Positions 8,703 through 17,890 of a stretch of 25,026 nt of DNA are shown here, piece by piece. Source of the stretch: a virus. The DNA lies in IMG/VR virus record IMGVR_UViG_3300035698_013493, positions 1 through 25,026 of that record; one strand, 5' to 3'. The position numbers and the translations under genes are program-made. Each line of letters starts with the position of its first letter. The stretch's first letter is position 1. The notes under the pieces are model-generated. The model was not told where the DNA came from. It made no database searches and was given only the letters and a program-made list of their open reading frames with translations.

Positions 8703-9629
8703 ATGAGTGTAACAGCAGCAGCGGGTCATCCGCAATATGCAGATATGGGTCTGATCCCGACATTGTTCGCCAAGGAGTTCAATGTCGAGTATTGGGCCAC
8801 CACCATCATGCCACGCATCACGACCGGAAAGTTTTATGAAGGTCTATTGAAGCAGGGGCATGGCATTGAAGTCGCAACTCTCCCGTCCATCGATACTTTC
8901 CCGTACAAGAAGGGCATGACCCTGCCTGTACAGGCACCGGAAAGCACGCCGATCACAATGGACGTGAACAGGGCGCGCGGTTTCAACATCCTGATAGATG
9001 ATATCGACCTGAAACAGACTCATCTCGATATCTCAGGGAAATACGTGAATCAAGGTGTCGATCAAATGCGCGAGGATGTTGAAAAGGAGTTCTTTGAGTC
9101 CATCTATTCGCAGGCACACGCCGACAACCAGGGCACGACCGCCGGAGCGAAATCCAGCGCGTACAACCTTGGTGTTGCCGGAACGCCAATAGCAATTACA
9201 ACCGCCAACGCCACGGAGATGCTTACGCGGATACGCGCCGTACTGGGCGAACAGAACTGCGCCACACCCGGCAAGATGTGGGTGATATTGCCGGAATGGA
9301 TGAGGTATTACCTGGTCAACTCAGACCTGAAGAACGCTGCTCTGATGGGCGATGACACTTCAGTAATGAGGACTGGCCGACTCGGTTCGATAGACGGTCT
9401 GACCATCTATGTATCGAACCTGCTCTATACGACCGATGCTGACGAAACCACCGGCACGTATGCTATGGGCGGGAACATGGATGCGATTTCTCACATCCAG
9501 CAGTTGAACAAGGTTGAACGTCTGACTTCCGAATCCACGTTTGGTAAGAAGATGCGCGGCCTCAATGTGTACGACTGGAACGTGCGCAAGCCGGAAGGGT
9601 TAGTGTCCTTGTATTGCTATAAGGGCTGA
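8703..9629 (+). CDS. Major capsid protein (HK97-fold coat)
   Basis: The shell protein of the virion. It is 308 aa, follows the scaffold and is in the size range of N4-gp56/P22-like coat proteins without a cleaved prodomain. The N-terminal arm contains FAKEFNVEYWATTIMPRITTGKFYEG; the spine helix is DQMREDVEKEFFESIYSQAHAD-like at about residues 120-140. The A-domain contains TEMLTRIRAVLGEQN, then GKMWVILPEWMRYYLVN, typical of capsid proteins that place a Pro-rich strand before the E-loop. The C-terminus carries GLTIYVSNLLYT and a closing strand GLVSLYCYKG. AAAGGAA lies 11 bases before ATG 8703. A GC hairpin with a UUCG loop follows the stop. Confidence 0.85.
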   Translation: MSVTAAAGHPQYADMGLIPTLFAKEFNVEYWATTIMPRITTGKFYEGLLKQGHGIEVATLPSIDTFPYKKGMTLPVQAPESTPITMDVNRARGFNILIDDIDLKQTHLDISGKYVNQGVDQMREDVEKEFFESIYSQAHADNQGTTAGAKSSAYNLGVAGTPIAITTANATEMLTRIRAVLGEQNCATPGKMWVILPEWMRYYLVNSDLKNAALMGDDTSVMRTGRLGSIDGLTIYVSNLLYTTDADETTGTYAMGGNMDAISHIQQLNKVERLTSESTFGKKMRGLNVYDWNVRKPEGLVSLYCYKG

Positions 9630-9690: not shown

Positions 9691-10188
9691 ATGAGGTTTT
9701 TCAAAAACAGTATGATAGGGCTGGGTGTTCTTGTTCTCATGGCAGTTACCGTGATTGCGGACACAGAGGATAAAACGGTCGGGGGTACAATAGGATATCC
9801 ATCTCGAGGTGCAGGGCAGACGATTCTGTTAGAGAGGACGCTTGATTTTTCAAGTTCCTCACATACGGGCACGGCTGAGAATGTTTATCAGATGTTCAAC
9901 GTGCCGGCAGGCACTTTTATTGTTGCTGTAGGCTATGAGATCGAGGATAACGGCAACTATACCGGAGAAGACAGTACGCTGACTATTGATATCGGTGATG
10001 GTGATGATACGGATGGGTGGATTGATGGAGCCAATTGTCTTACCGGACAGACGGCCGTTGCAATGTCCGCATGGTCGTTTGGATCATCCTTGGCCGTGAT
10101 TACCAATGTGGCGGATACTACGGGAACATTTGTTACCCAACGTGACCCGATACAACAGGGGACGTTCGTGACCAACGTTTACGGATAA
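9691..10188 (+). CDS. N-terminal part of an interrupted, signal-peptide-bearing virion-associated protein
   Basis: ATG 9691 has an AAAGG site about 9 bases upstream. The first 23 residues form a Sec-type signal: MRFFKNS, a hydrophobic core and VIA before Asp24. The mature part resembles small phage head-associated proteins: TFIVAVGYEIEDNGN followed by a DIGDGDDTDGWIDGAN segment (residues about 70-115). The frame ends at TAA 10186-10188, inside 11-residue NVTDTTGTFVT repeats. The same frame continues downstream without a new start signal to a normal family-like C-terminus. The stop is best explained by single-base homopolymer additions in the repeats (see findings), so this is half of one gene. 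A decoration protein is my best guess. A real, truncated 165-aa product is possible. Confidence 0.6.
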   Translation: MRFFKNSMIGLGVLVLMAVTVIADTEDKTVGGTIGYPSRGAGQTILLERTLDFSSSSHTGTAENVYQMFNVPAGTFIVAVGYEIEDNGNYTGEDSTLTIDIGDGDDTDGWIDGANCLTGQTAVAMSAWSFGSSLAVITNVADTTGTFVTQRDPIQQGTFVTNVYG

Positions 10189-10227
10189 CCACGGGGGACG
10201 TTTGTTACCAACGTAACGGATACTACG
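10105..10227 (+). repeat. 33-bp coding repeats with six single-base homopolymer expansions
   Basis: Four copies of a unit coding NV(T/A)DTTGTFVT start at 10105, 10139, 10174 and 10210; the last is partial. Removing one base from each of six runs restores perfect 33-bp units: C at 10136-10138, C at 10146-10148, G at 10158-10161, T at 10178-10180, A at 10187-10188 and G at 10193-10197. The first three additions together restore the frame and change NVTDTTG to QRDPIQQ. The second three also restore the frame but create the TAA at 10186. Confidence 0.8.
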
Positions 10228-10605
10228 ATCGAATTGGTCTACATGACGAATATAACCACGACTACCACAAACTACAACGGAACGAACTTCATTGCTTCGG
10301 TGACAGCGTTGTTTGCCACGCAAACAGTGGTGACCGCGACGGCCACGGGAACCGACGATGCTGTAACCGCGACGGCAATTGTGACCGACAATGCAGTCGT
10401 GTCAACGGCTACGGGAACTGATGCCGCTGTAACCGCGACTACCTCGACCACTGCAACGATATACCCGATTACATCGGCGCCTGTTGCATACGCAGGTGGA
10501 CAGTTGTACACATCGACCGACACCATCGACGTGACGTTGAACAACGATGCGGATCAACTCAAGATCACTGTAAGAGCACTGGCAGTTCCACTTGCCGGAC
10601 TCTAA
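10189..10605 (+). pseudogene. C-terminal part of the interrupted virion-associated protein
   Basis: This stretch continues the frame of 9691-10188 past the TAA. It starts with another GTFVTNVTDTT unit and goes through a Thr/Val/Ala-rich repeat zone (VTATATGTDDAVTATAIVTD and relatives, about 10325-10445). It ends with GGQLYTSTDTIDVTLNNDAD and a hydrophobic strand. That ending (YTS.DTI..T.NN) is the expected end of the small head-associated proteins that the N-terminal part resembles. The only internal starts are a TTG at 10234 and an ATG at 10243, neither with a ribosome site. Independent translation is therefore unlikely. Without the repeat-zone additions the joined protein would be about 302 residues. 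Confidence 0.6.
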
Positions 10606-11589: not shown

Positions 11590-11608
11590 ACGATGAATGG
11601 AATACGAT

Positions 11609-14600
11609 ATGAAAAGACTTTTTATATTACTCTGCCTGACAGCTGCTCTTGCAAAAGCCGAGGTTGGCACCGAACGTTTTGTTATCCGACTGGATGACCA
11701 TTCATCGAGACAGTTTCATCTCAAGCTCCCCCAGCAGGGCACACCGCGTTATGTCTTCACGCTCATGGAAGATAAAGATACCACCTTTGATGCTCGCGGT
11801 CTGGCCCCTCAACTCAGAATAGCCACCAACGCCCAGCCGGATGTCGTCGGGATGCGGACTATCCCCGGTGTGATCGAGGATGGCACAGATGGTACGAACA
11901 TCATCTTCCAGCTCAACACCAACGATTGCGTCACTACCCGCCAGAAAGCTTATGCTGCCGTCGTCATCAGGAACGATACTCAGGCGCTTACAAGAGCAAG
12001 AGGCTGGTGTACCGTGTGGGAAGGTGACGAGATAATTACACCTGACGAGATATACTCTATCAGCACCAATTGGGGGGGGTACGTCGAAAGCGATCCGCTG
12101 GCTGTTCATCTCGATACCACGCATGAAGGCGATGTCACCGGGCTATACAACGCGATGATTGTCACGCAGATTGAAGACATGGCCTCAGCGACTCTGACCA
12201 ACTACGCCACACTGGGCTTTACAGGTTACAACGATCTGACTAACTGGCTCGGAACGAACACGACAGTAGACGCTGAAACGGCGTTTGGTGGTAATGTAAG
12301 CGGTGTTTACAGTAATCTTACCGTTACGAATATATCCGGTGTAGCGGTTTCCACTCTTACCAATCAAGCTGCTTTGGGCTTTGCCAGCTACAATGACCTC
12401 ACCAACTGGCTCGGCACGAATACGACCCTGAATGCTGAAACGGCGTTCGGCAACGACGTGAGCGGTGTTTACAGTAATCTTACCGTTACGAATATATCCG
12501 GTGTAGCGGTAGCGACATTAACTAATCAGGCTGCTCAGGGTGCAACTGCCTATGGATGGGGCGATCATACAACCAACGCCTACCTATCAACGTCAACCAA
12601 TTTCGGTGGTGATGTGAGCGGTGTTTACAGTAATCTTACCGTTACGAATATATCCGATGTAGCGGTTTCCACTCTTACCAATCAAGCTGCTCAAGGCGCT
12701 ACGGCCTACGGCTGGGGCGATCATGGGACAGAGGGATACACAACTGTAAGCAATGTTCTGTTCACCGACGGCTCGGCTGACTGGGCAGCTTACCAGAACG
12801 CTGACGAATACGGTGTGACCAATGCGGCCTACCTTTACCTGCGCGGCTCGAACAGTGTTGATCTGATTGCGGATGGAACTTTTGCAACAAACACGAGCTG
12901 GACTGAAGGCGGGAGCTGGTCAATAGCTGGCGGTGAGGCCGAATGTTCAACAGCTAATTCCGACCTGTCCCAGGATATCGGGGCGATTTCCGGCAAGCAG
13001 TACCGCGTGACATTCACCATGAACGAAGCGAACGAGACAGTCACGCCGTATATTGGAACGGCGGCGGGAACGAGCAGAACCACGTCCAACACGTTTACGG
13101 AAGTGATTACGTGTCTTGCCGATTCCGGTGATCTGATTATGCGCTATTCGCAGAGTGGGGGGCTGGCCTGTACGATTGACGATGTATGTGTCTATGGGCT
13201 GGATGAGATTGAGACCATCTCACCGCTGAAGGTCAATACGTGGGATACAGCGATTCTGACCAATACGGCATCAGGTGGAGATATATCCGGTGTATTCGGG
13301 AGTCTGACAGTAACTCAGGTATTCGGAGTGGCAGGCGCTACTTTAACCAATCAGGCGGCACAGGGCGCAAGTGCCTATGCGTGGGGTGATCACGGGACAG
13401 AGGGCTATTTAGATACCAATAGCACATTTGCTGGCGATGTTACAGGAACATACGATTCCCTTTCAGTTACGCAGGTATCGGGGGTAGCGGTAGCGACGCT
13501 CACAAATCAGGCGGCGGAAGGTGCAGCGGCTTATGCATGGGACGACCATGGGACAGAGGGTTATTCCACTACGAATAACGCCGTTCTCACCAATACGCCG
13601 GCAGGTGGAGATATGTCCGGTGTATTCGGAAGTCTGACGGTAACTCAGGTCTCTGGCATGGCATCAGAGACGCTCACTAATTATGCCACACTGGGCTTCG
13701 CCAGTTATAATGATCTCACAAACTGGTTTGGCACAAACAAGACTCTGCAAGCAGATGGCTCAGTTGCATGGACGGCAGATCAGAATGCGGGTGAAAAGAC
13801 TTTATCTAATCTCGCGTCTATAGGTTTTTACCCAACCCCAGGCCCAGGCTCATGGGGCATCGCCGGTTCATATGGTTCCTCTCTGCGTTTTGCTTTTGAT
13901 GGTAATACTTACATCGTTTTCTACACCAATGGGCTTGTTAAGGATTGGCCGGGCGTAGTCTGGGACCTCAATGTCGTATCCAATGCCACCTACTACGGCA
14001 CTACCCACGCAGCCGCAGGTTCGGGCTTCACCGTCCCTGCTACTCCGGCAGCCACCAACGCGCCTGTCACTCAGCAATGGATACTAGACAAGGAATATCT
14101 CTCGTCCACAAGCAACGAGTTTGAGGAGGTCACTATTGCCAACCGTGCCTCGTTGGGCAGTGAGCTGACCACGAACGGGACATTTACCGGCTCGGCGGAT
14201 CACTGGGCGCTGGTCAACTGCACATTCGAATCTTTGGGAACATACTCCAATAAAATCAGGGTGGCGGCAGGGGTTTCAGCCACGATCACTCCCTCAAACG
14301 TTGTGGGCGCCACTCTAGGGCAAACCTATCTGATATCCGCAACAGTCTACTCGTTCGGGGACAGTGTGACGAACTCGTTCATCTTTGGCGGGGTAACGAA
14401 CCAGAATGTTGATGTAGCAATATCGGGCAACAGCAATCTGGTGACAGCTTTGACGACCAATGATCTGATTTACGCTATTAAGTCGGGTACAAATTACTCG
14501 ATTTACGTAGATAATATCTCGATCAAGAAAGTTACAGGCGGCAACCTTAACGTGGCGGGTAATGGATACTTCGGTGGCGATGTCTATGCTGCTTCCAACT

Positions 14601-15520
14601 CATACTACTTCAGTCACGGTGGCAGGATAACCTCGTCGGGCAATACGTTGTACTGGGTAGACCCGGATGGAACAACAAACGATATCTCATTGAGCAATAC
14701 GCTGGTAACAGCATATACGGCGGCGGACGCGGTTGTGACGGCAGCCTACATTGCAGCGGATGTGGTTGTCACAAATGCTTTTATTACGGCAGACACCGCA
14801 CAGAGCAATGCGCTGGTGACCGCCTACATTGCCGCTGATACGGTGCAAACAGACGCATACAGCTCCACCAACGGCGCGGCTATGATCGGAGTGAATACCA
14901 ACGACTTGTCTGATATTACTCCTGCGGGAACAAACCTGCAAACGGTTTTGGAGGACATTACAAGTCTGCTTGGTGCCGGTAGCGGCATTACTGACCCCAC
15001 GAACACGCATTACTACATGCGACTGAAAATACCGCTGAATCCGGGCGGGTATCCGGGGAACTGGACAGACGCCGAGGTCAAAATCTGCGAGGTTACGAAC
15101 ACAACTCAGGAGTGGAGTGACGATGCACTGAAATACTATTACCAATCGATGGCGGCAGTTGACGCAACATACGGCGATACAAACGCGCATCTCTATTTTG
15201 TTGACGATCATAATGCGTTTGTGGGGGAGAGCCGGGGGATACTGAAATGGTCGTTGCTGTGGGATTTTTCGGTATGGGTCCAACTTACCAATGCCAATTC
15301 AGTGGTGGAATATCTGTATCTGTACCCCAGTCACGAGGGCTGCAAGAAAGACTGGGAGACGTGGCAGTGGTACACGAATGCTCACAATTTGAGGGCGAGT
15401 TTTATTCGATATGATTCTGTCGGGCCAGAGACGAACAGTTTGGGAGTCGGACGCTGGCAGCCGCTTGAAATTGATTGGATAAAGGAACGATTAAACGAGG
15501 CACCGTTGCCTCAAGGATAA
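11609..15520 (+). CDS. Large repeat-rich tail fibre / receptor-binding protein with signal peptide
   Basis: A 1303-aa modular fibre. The start at 11609 is preferred over 11597 because it gives a clean signal peptide, MKRLFILLCLTAALAKA before EVGTE; the ribosome site is weak. Residues about 20-145 resemble a baseplate-attachment (BppU-like) beta domain. Residues about 165-380 hold GDVSG.Y.NLTVT...VA.LTNQAA repeats of 50-55 aa, often with GATAYGWGDH..GY. Two beta-sandwich, carbohydrate-binding-like domains begin near SVDLIADGTF (about 410) and ELTTNGTF (about 850). More repeats lie between them (about 550-700), and Ala/Thr/Val-rich AAD..VTA coiled-coil repeats near 1030-1080. The last 200 residues are a Trp/Tyr-rich unknown domain, a good candidate for the receptor-binding tip. 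Export of a fibre is unusual. Confidence 0.8.
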   Translation: MKRLFILLCLTAALAKAEVGTERFVIRLDDHSSRQFHLKLPQQGTPRYVFTLMEDKDTTFDARGLAPQLRIATNAQPDVVGMRTIPGVIEDGTDGTNIIFQLNTNDCVTTRQKAYAAVVIRNDTQALTRARGWCTVWEGDEIITPDEIYSISTNWGGYVESDPLAVHLDTTHEGDVTGLYNAMIVTQIEDMASATLTNYATLGFTGYNDLTNWLGTNTTVDAETAFGGNVSGVYSNLTVTNISGVAVSTLTNQAALGFASYNDLTNWLGTNTTLNAETAFGNDVSGVYSNLTVTNISGVAVATLTNQAAQGATAYGWGDHTTNAYLSTSTNFGGDVSGVYSNLTVTNISDVAVSTLTNQAAQGATAYGWGDHGTEGYTTVSNVLFTDGSADWAAYQNADEYGVTNAAYLYLRGSNSVDLIADGTFATNTSWTEGGSWSIAGGEAECSTANSDLSQDIGAISGKQYRVTFTMNEANETVTPYIGTAAGTSRTTSNTFTEVITCLADSGDLIMRYSQSGGLACTIDDVCVYGLDEIETISPLKVNTWDTAILTNTASGGDISGVFGSLTVTQVFGVAGATLTNQAAQGASAYAWGDHGTEGYLDTNSTFAGDVTGTYDSLSVTQVSGVAVATLTNQAAEGAAAYAWDDHGTEGYSTTNNAVLTNTPAGGDMSGVFGSLTVTQVSGMASETLTNYATLGFASYNDLTNWFGTNKTLQADGSVAWTADQNAGEKTLSNLASIGFYPTPGPGSWGIAGSYGSSLRFAFDGNTYIVFYTNGLVKDWPGVVWDLNVVSNATYYGTTHAAAGSGFTVPATPAATNAPVTQQWILDKEYLSSTSNEFEEVTIANRASLGSELTTNGTFTGSADHWALVNCTFESLGTYSNKIRVAAGVSATITPSNVVGATLGQTYLISATVYSFGDSVTNSFIFGGVTNQNVDVAISGNSNLVTALTTNDLIYAIKSGTNYSIYVDNISIKKVTGGNLNVAGNGYFGGDVYAASNSYYFSHGGRITSSGNTLYWVDPDGTTNDISLSNTLVTAYTAADAVVTAAYIAADVVVTNAFITADTAQSNALVTAYIAADTVQTDAYSSTNGAAMIGVNTNDLSDITPAGTNLQTVLEDITSLLGAGSGITDPTNTHYYMRLKIPLNPGGYPGNWTDAEVKICEVTNTTQEWSDDALKYYYQSMAAVDATYGDTNAHLYFVDDHNAFVGESRGILKWSLLWDFSVWVQLTNANSVVEYLYLYPSHEGCKKDWETWQWYTNAHNLRASFIRYDSVGPETNSLGVGRWQPLEIDWIKERLNEAPLPQG
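12072..12079 (+). repeat. G8 homopolymer within the fibre gene
   Basis: Eight consecutive G at 12072-12079 encode Trp-Gly-Gly in the frame as given (TGG GGG GGG TAC). Gain or loss of one G runs into a stop within about 30 codons, before any of the repeats or binding domains. Confidence 0.85.
12299..12691 (+). repeat. Three near-identical DNA repeats in the fibre gene
   Basis: A segment starting AGCGGTGTTTACAGTAATCT begins at 12299, 12461 and 12617. The first and third copies match over 75 bases with a single difference (GGT to GAT); the second matches the first over its leading 50 bases. Spacing is 162 and 156 bases. Other repeats in the gene keep the protein pattern but have diverged in DNA, so these copies are recent or gene-converted. 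Confidence 0.8.
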
Positions 15521-16224: not shown

Positions 16225-17046
16225 ATGTGGTCATGGATATACATATTTCTGGCGGTGGGTTTTTCGCTGCAAATCTATGCCGCCGACCTTGAGCCGATCG
16301 CAATCGAGCCTGCCGCTTCTGCAACCAATCAATGGGAGAAACAGGCGGATGAGACCAATTCTGCTGTTGCTGTCAAGCTCTACGCTGTGGCTATCACCAA
16401 TTACAGCATAGCAGCCAAGCCTGATATTGCAGGCGTGATACGATGCCTCGACAAGTTCCCGTGGCAGGAAGTCGACGCAGCCGAGTTCAAGGCGATGGCG
16501 CGGGAAATGGAGCCGTTACTCAGCGCGGATAATCAGAAGTTTGCTGAGTGGCAGAAAAGGCTGGTGACGAAGTACCGGTTGCTGCAAGACGATGATGAGC
16601 CGGATATTGCGCTCAATAAACTAGGGTATGTCATTCCGCGAATAGATATCCCTGAGATAGACATTCCTGAAAACGCCATCGTCTTGGTACGGATAGATGA
16701 TGGCGCATTCAACGAAATAGAGACGTGGTCAATAGACATTCCTGAAAACGCCATCGTCTTGGTACGGATAGATGATGGCGCATTCAACGAAATAGAGACG
16801 TGGTCAGCGGTATATGAGTTGGCGTTCCGGGTGATGGGGCGCGACGGACTTTATGTTCCGCACCACAACTCACCGCTCGGATGGCGGCGGACGTATCTCG
16901 TTCGGAAGCTGGAAGCGGCGGGGCCGGGCTGGCGGACTGATCCCGACTTGCTGGCGGAGTGGGAGGAGTACTGGGTTTATATCCGGGCCGGACTTGACCG
17001 GCGGGAACGGATGCAGGGTCAGAGAACAAGGATACTGACAAGGTGA
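16225..17046 (+). CDS. Exported hypothetical protein with a perfect 25-aa internal duplication
   Basis: AGGAG at 16216-16220 sets ATG 16225. Residues 1-20 form a signal peptide (MWSWIYIFLAVGFSLQIYAA, cleavage near ADLEP). The mature N-terminal half is helical and acidic (QWEKQADETNSAVAVKLY; EFKAMAREMEPLL). In the middle, a 25-residue block beginning IDIPENAIVLVRIDDG occurs twice in tandem with identical DNA. The C-terminal part is basic and Trp/Arg-rich (GLYVPHHNSPLGWRR; WRTDPDLLAEWEEYWVYIRAG). I recognise no family. It forms an exported pair with the preceding gene. The last codons (QRTRILTR) are echoed in the next small gene. Confidence 0.65.
   Translation: MWSWIYIFLAVGFSLQIYAADLEPIAIEPAASATNQWEKQADETNSAVAVKLYAVAITNYSIAAKPDIAGVIRCLDKFPWQEVDAAEFKAMAREMEPLLSADNQKFAEWQKRLVTKYRLLQDDDEPDIALNKLGYVIPRIDIPEIDIPENAIVLVRIDDGAFNEIETWSIDIPENAIVLVRIDDGAFNEIETWSAVYELAFRVMGRDGLYVPHHNSPLGWRRTYLVRKLEAAGPGWRTDPDLLAEWEEYWVYIRAGLDRRERMQGQRTRILTR
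16657..16806 (+). repeat. Perfect 75-bp tandem duplication
   Basis: Bases 16657-16731 and 16732-16806 are identical over all 75 positions, and the match ends at both flanks. It adds exactly 25 codons in frame. No third-position change has accumulated, so the event is recent, under conversion, or an assembly product. Confidence 0.95.
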
Positions 17047-17242: not shown

Positions 17243-17890
17243 ATGGATAATGAGAAAATGATTTTTCACACCGGATTTTCAGGCGGAGGATGGATACGGG
17301 ACGAACCAAAGGATCGTCTGCTTCGCGCTCCGCATGGTTTTTCCGCTCCAGAGTATATTGATAGTCGGTCGTATTGCTTACCCGCTAACCATCAGGGGGT
17401 CGAGTCGATTTGCGCGGGGGTCGCCGTGGCGGGATATGTCGAAGTCCAGAGATGGAAAGAAACACATATCGCTCAACAAGTTGACGGTCGGGAGATTTAC
17501 AGTAAAGCCCATAAATGGATACCCGCCGCTGACGGCACTACGCTTGAATATGCTTTTAAGGCGGCTCAAGCGTTGGGCTATTATACAGATAGACATATAG
17601 AGTATTTTACGACTAAGAAAGATTTAACATTTGCGCTGCACTCACATACTGCATGTGTTGTCGGCATGGACATCACGGACAACTGGAATAAGACGAATGT
17701 TAAGACCGGCTGGATAGGCGAGGGGGACGATGAGAAAATAGGCGGACACGCTGTGCTGGCCTGCTGGTATGACGATGATGGATTTGGTTGGCAGAATTCA
17801 TGGTCGGGCAGATGGGGCGTCGATGGATTCGGCAGGATGCGATGGAGCCAATTTGATAAAGAGTTTGTTTACGGAGCGGTACTCGTTTAG
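17243..17890 (+). CDS. Papain-like (C1 family) cysteine peptidase
   Basis: A 215-aa cysteine peptidase of the papain fold with all expected active-site elements: Gln51 (oxyanion hole, NHQGVES), Cys57 (ICAGVAVAGYVE), His169 (GGHAVLACWYDD) and Asn185 in NSWSGRWG. The opening SAPEYIDSRSYCLPA corresponds to the mature start of papain-type enzymes. There is no signal peptide and no long prodomain, so it is made in an active-looking form in the cytoplasm. It follows a small membrane protein and precedes an XhlA-like one, where an endolysin is usually encoded; peptidoglycan cross-link cleavage is one possible role, virion protein processing another. The start at 17243 has only a weak ribosome site; ATG 17258 is an alternative. 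Confidence 0.8.
   Translation: MDNEKMIFHTGFSGGGWIRDEPKDRLLRAPHGFSAPEYIDSRSYCLPANHQGVESICAGVAVAGYVEVQRWKETHIAQQVDGREIYSKAHKWIPAADGTTLEYAFKAAQALGYYTDRHIEYFTTKKDLTFALHSHTACVVGMDITDNWNKTNVKTGWIGEGDDEKIGGHAVLACWYDDDGFGWQNSWSGRWGVDGFGRMRWSQFDKEFVYGAVLV

Follow-up and report, generated by a model that had tools for sequence, protein, structure and literature searches.

A putative capsid cement protein gene interrupted within a short tandem repeat of a metagenomic virus record, probably by a local consensus error

Directly after the major capsid gene of the virus record IMGVR_UViG_3300035698_013493 lies a gene that is recorded in two pieces but belongs, as judged from its relatives, to a single reading frame. 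The stretch analysed, referred to here as the window, covers positions 1 to 25,026 of that record (25,026 bases). Within it, an upstream open frame of 165 amino acids (9691-10188, plus strand) is closed by an in-frame TAA at 10186-10188, past which the same frame reopens until a TAA at 10603-10605; the downstream open frame occupies 10234-10605 (plus strand). The whole gene (9691-10605, plus strand) appears to encode a capsid cement (decoration) protein, as the two pieces match a profile of 18 relatives and the profile of the family also picks up cement proteins of solved structure. The interruption is probably a local error in the consensus sequence, technical in origin and most likely absent from the phage.

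The interrupted gene is part of a head module arranged in the order terminase-like gene, SU10-type portal, scaffold-like gene, major capsid protein gene, interrupted gene, and connector- and tail-type genes. The intact major capsid protein gene (8703-9629, plus strand) matches phrog_267 with an E value of 8e-28, and the interrupted gene begins 61 bp past it. The PHROGs and Pfam collections did not recognize the interrupted gene. Elsewhere in this module and the late region, a 162-bp repeat (12213-12510; 83% alike, no indels) lies in the repeat-rich tail-type gene of 1,307 amino acids (11597-15520), and an exact 75-bp tandem duplication (16657-16806; 100% identical, in frame, 25 residues), which is either very recent or an assembly duplication, lies inside the gene at 16225-17046. 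The late-region frame 17243-17890 gave a weak match to papain-type cysteine proteases (Pfam PF00112, E 0.12, under the cut-off), and its product may be a protease acting in lysis or in the virion. The chromosome of Lentisphaerae bacterium WC36 (CP085689.1) contains a capsid gene that shares 34% identity with that of the window, which hints weakly at the group of hosts that such phages infect.

Neither of the two pieces, used directly as a query, found a match in viral contigs, genomes or a phage collection. Relatives were therefore reached via the capsid gene, giving more than 150 loci. Wherever the gene downstream of the capsid gene is related to the interrupted one, it is one uninterrupted frame (18 relatives, 133-201 amino acids as aligned). 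Against a family profile built from these 18 relatives, with the window left out, the upstream piece scores E 3.9e-23 (positions 2-123) and the downstream piece, collinear with it, E 1.6e-6 (positions 90-151). With the C-terminal part of the profile alone, the downstream piece scored an E value of 4e-9, while the next best open reading frame of the window had an E value above 1. An earlier profile built from five distant phages had found the N-terminal half and missed the C-terminal half, and an alignment of the N-terminal half with distant homologues was too divergent for scanning; a terminase search in the records of five relatives returned nothing. These matches indicate that the upstream and downstream pieces belong to one gene. 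They bear out the original prediction that one phage structural gene is broken here and that the frame past the stop carries the expected C-terminus, as the 18 relatives hold both halves in a single frame beside the major capsid gene. None of the relatives is split or ends at the same stop, and none among them is a close relative with repeats at this place in which the peptide QRDPIQQ, read from the disturbed repeat, could be sought.

The nearest relative is the homologue in IMGVR_UViG_3300018080_000023 (hereafter L089), a record syntenic with the window (portal 34% and capsid protein 43% identical) and has the same gene order around the gene in question. The L089 protein is 49% identical to that of the window where aligned, and has the same hydrophobic N-terminus and the same neighbours; it differs in that both halves lie in a single frame of 192 amino acids, with a Thr-rich loop of about 40 residues as compared to about 150 in the window. 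A DNA search of the viral contigs for an undisturbed form of the repeat found none, and a separate search for relatives brought up L089 alone. More distantly, HMO-2011-type phages encode, immediately downstream of the coat gene, a protein that shares position, core motifs and the C-terminal ...DTIDxL...KIRVxA strands (HMO-2011 phage1322_46, Roseobacter phage CRP-345 gp57, Pelagibacter phage HTVC033P gp72 and Sinorhizobium phage phiM6 gene 15). However, the HMO-2011-type proteins, at 161-163 amino acids, are uninterrupted and have neither the repeat loop nor a signal-like N-terminus.

The resemblance to cement proteins comes from both sequence and modelled structure. The family profile, with the window included, matched the solved structures of Pam1 (7eel_H, E 1.1e-4) and KHP30 (7dn2_1, E 0.003). 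A single-sequence model of the window's read-through protein was useless (pLDDT 33), but a model of the L089 protein made with the family alignment reached a pLDDT of 70.6, with the core above 80. The beta core was modelled with confidence in two segments, at about residues 41-110 and 151-190, and the stretch between them (111-150) with low confidence; the best matches of the model among solved structures were the cement chains of KHP30, GP4, Pam1 and KHP40 (E 8e-6 to 2e-4). Thus, sequence homology, a beta-sandwich fold (on L089) and adjacency to the capsid gene are all shared with the trimeric Ig-like cement proteins of the cyanophage Pam1 (PDB 7EEL chain H), the Helicobacter phage KHP30 (gp15, PDB 7DN2) and the Ralstonia phage GP4 (gp1, PDB 8H89 chain J). 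In GP4, cement proteins with an Ig-like fold occupy the quasi-threefold axes of the outer capsid surface as trimers (PMC9698820). We infer that the window gene likewise specifies an Ig-like or beta-sandwich capsid cement protein that would decorate the virion. It differs from the solved proteins in being about twice as long, owing to its repeat-rich loop, in its hydrophobic N-terminus, and in being interrupted in the record.

The N-terminus (MRFFKNSMIGLGVLVLMAVTVIAD; 9691-9762, plus strand) is signal-peptide-like or hydrophobic, with a hydropathy maximum of 3.06; it is conserved in L089 and missing in more distant relatives. Signal-peptide-like N-termini occur on four genes of the structural module, starting at 9691, 11597, 15552 and 16225, and a lipoprotein-looking start was seen at 1363. 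It is uncommon for proteins of a capsid module to have signal peptides. At the other end, the downstream frame holds the conserved C-terminal strands AYAGGQLYTSTDTIDVTL...ITVRALAV. As the beta core of L089 flanks the low-confidence stretch, the repeats of the window are expected to sit in a surface-type loop; in the window phage, a loop between core strands may have grown into a Thr/Val-rich repeat region. Because the repeats lie between core strands, the TAA at 10186 would remove the last of these strands, and the truncated form of 165 amino acids would then presumably be unable to fold.

The 33-bp repeat is present in four copies within 10096-10230 (plus strand). Unit 0 (10096-10125, VITNVADTTG) is undisturbed, as is unit 3 (10198-10230, TFVTNVTDTTI), while units 1 and 2 (10126-10200) have three extra bases each (10136-10163 and 10178-10200), making each disturbed unit 36 bp long. 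When 10126-10224, which comprises three units coding for TFVTNVTDTTG, was aligned with this peptide by a codon-aware dynamic programme, the cost was 12, corresponding to six +1 insertions with 0 substitutions and 0 deletions; shuffled DNA of the same composition had a mean cost of about 68 and a best cost of 59.5 (200 trials). The disruption of the repeat by six +1 changes in about 60 bases, as originally described, is therefore confirmed in the recorded sequence. The insertions span about 61 bp, and the chance that six uniform events in 25 kb would cluster in this way is about 5e-13. They yield the peptide QRDPIQQ followed by the in-frame TAA, a stop created by the second group of insertions.

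Two further statements about these insertions needed qualification. Most of the extra bases extend an existing run, but not all six as had been claimed: the A of the second group duplicates a single A and at that site lengthens no existing run, and of the three extra bases in the first group the last is ambiguous, being either an additional G (codon ACA) or an inserted A (ACG, as in the neighbouring units). A random inserted base extends its neighbour about 42% of the time, giving a probability of about 0.005 for six of six and about 0.05 for at least five of six; the neighbour-extending pattern is thus suggestive but not overwhelming. Similarly, the two groups of three do restore the frame, but six insertions return to frame in one case out of three anyway, and this return therefore calls for no explanation or selection.

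The disturbed units also bear on when the extra bases arose. Between units 1 and 2 there are seven synonymous differences and not one that alters an amino acid (chance about 1e-5 under random substitution), which implies that the unshifted frame was held by selection until the extra bases arose. All six insertions would therefore be younger than the divergence of the two units, with nothing else altered and no time spent under relaxed selection.

Several lines of evidence support a consensus error as the source of the break. In addition to the single open frame across the break in the 18 relatives, the collinear profile matches of both pieces and the purely synonymous divergence of units 1 and 2, the six events, confined to 61 bp, are insertions without exception, and the affected runs, 1-4 bases long before extension and at six different places, are too short for ordinary slippage. 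A second degenerate 33-bp repeat (10333-10439, plus strand; about 3 copies, Thr/Ala/Val-rich), 110 bp downstream, has 0% indels, and the rest of the structural module has open frames and keeps its synteny with L089. The extra bases, and with them the TAA, could stem from read errors of the insertion type that escaped correction across a short tandem repeat, and the true gene would then run as a single open frame for about 300 codons. Errors in PacBio subreads are mostly insertions; in viral metagenomes, genes are called too short because of indel errors, and polishing leaves a residue of them (PMC6487183, PMC10926689). Assemblies are also known to go wrong at tandem repeats (PMC6868369). Against a consensus error, the window's other long genes are open, as had been stated, and no further frame break was seen across the 25 kb, so that the error would be confined to one repeat, which is unusual; repeats of this size also fit inside ordinary short reads. 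Illumina assemblies seldom gain insertions like the six seen. Runs of six to eight bases elsewhere in the window sit in open frames (for example, G8 at 12072 inside the gene of 1,307 amino acids), and a general miscounting of run lengths is therefore not the cause. Among the three explanations originally offered, local consensus error fits best, while a hypermutable-repeat switch and ongoing decay are both disfavoured.

The second most likely reading, though an unlikely one, is a real and recent disruption: the extra bases would belong to a phage lineage or to a minor variant whose cement protein is cut to 165 amino acids, being dispensable and in early decay. The deposited sequence does read so, and the first group of insertions, taken alone, affects residues of the loop and no others, which the protein would tolerate. 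Some phages can do without their decoration proteins. However, six independent insertions with neither a deletion nor an amino-acid change would be hard to accumulate, as a gene broken by its first insertion would collect other changes; ongoing decay is disfavoured precisely because the shifted units show only synonymous differences. Moreover, the C-terminal piece still matches the family and the remaining genes are open.

We consider it very unlikely that the direct repeats of 33-36 bp form a reversible switch, in which loss or regain of the stop-bearing unit turns the full-length cement protein on or off. The arithmetic allows for it, since recombinational loss of the 36-bp unit bearing the stop restores the frame, and the repeat does lie in a loop. 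Nevertheless, no variant was seen, no relative carries the repeat (the viral contigs searched with the open repeat gave no match), and the changes fall at six scattered sites in runs of 1-4 bases, while longer runs such as G8 are undisturbed, which disfavours a hypermutable repeat; the single long simple tract of a phase-variable (contingency) gene is not seen here. Slimmer still is the chance that a tandem-repeat surface loop whose stop-bearing unit is lost and gained gives rise to decorated and undecorated heads in one phage population.

The least probable reading is that programmed readthrough or frameshifting yields short and long forms of the protein. Plain readthrough would indeed give the long form, the reading frame being unchanged across the stop, but this stop is TAA, which terminates six other genes of the window, it is missing from the 18 relatives, and single-strand DNA folding of 10100-10235 was no better than that of shuffled sequences (z +1.2 and +0.6). 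Neither a leaky stop or slippery site, nor structure, nor conservation, the marks of programmed recoding, was found, and an error induced by a hairpin was rejected on the same folding result. Reassignment of TAA as a sense codon was also rejected, as TAA ends 7 of the 24 listed genes, including the portal gene, the gene of 1,307 amino acids and the far end of the interrupted gene. As to separate initiation of the downstream piece, the absence of a start signal held for the first in-frame starts, 10234 and 10243, which have no convincing ribosome site, but a 5-base GGTGA precedes the TTG at 10309.

The present case illustrates that error and biology can be separated without reads in a metagenomic virus record when repeat units are protein-identical except for +1 insertions and intact relatives are available. 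The unannotated family of small proteins whose genes immediately follow that of the capsid protein in HMO-2011-like and related phages probably consists of cement proteins, and that of the window phage has an unusual repeat loop. If the stop were real after all, it would bear on whether head decoration is dispensable or switched in nature.
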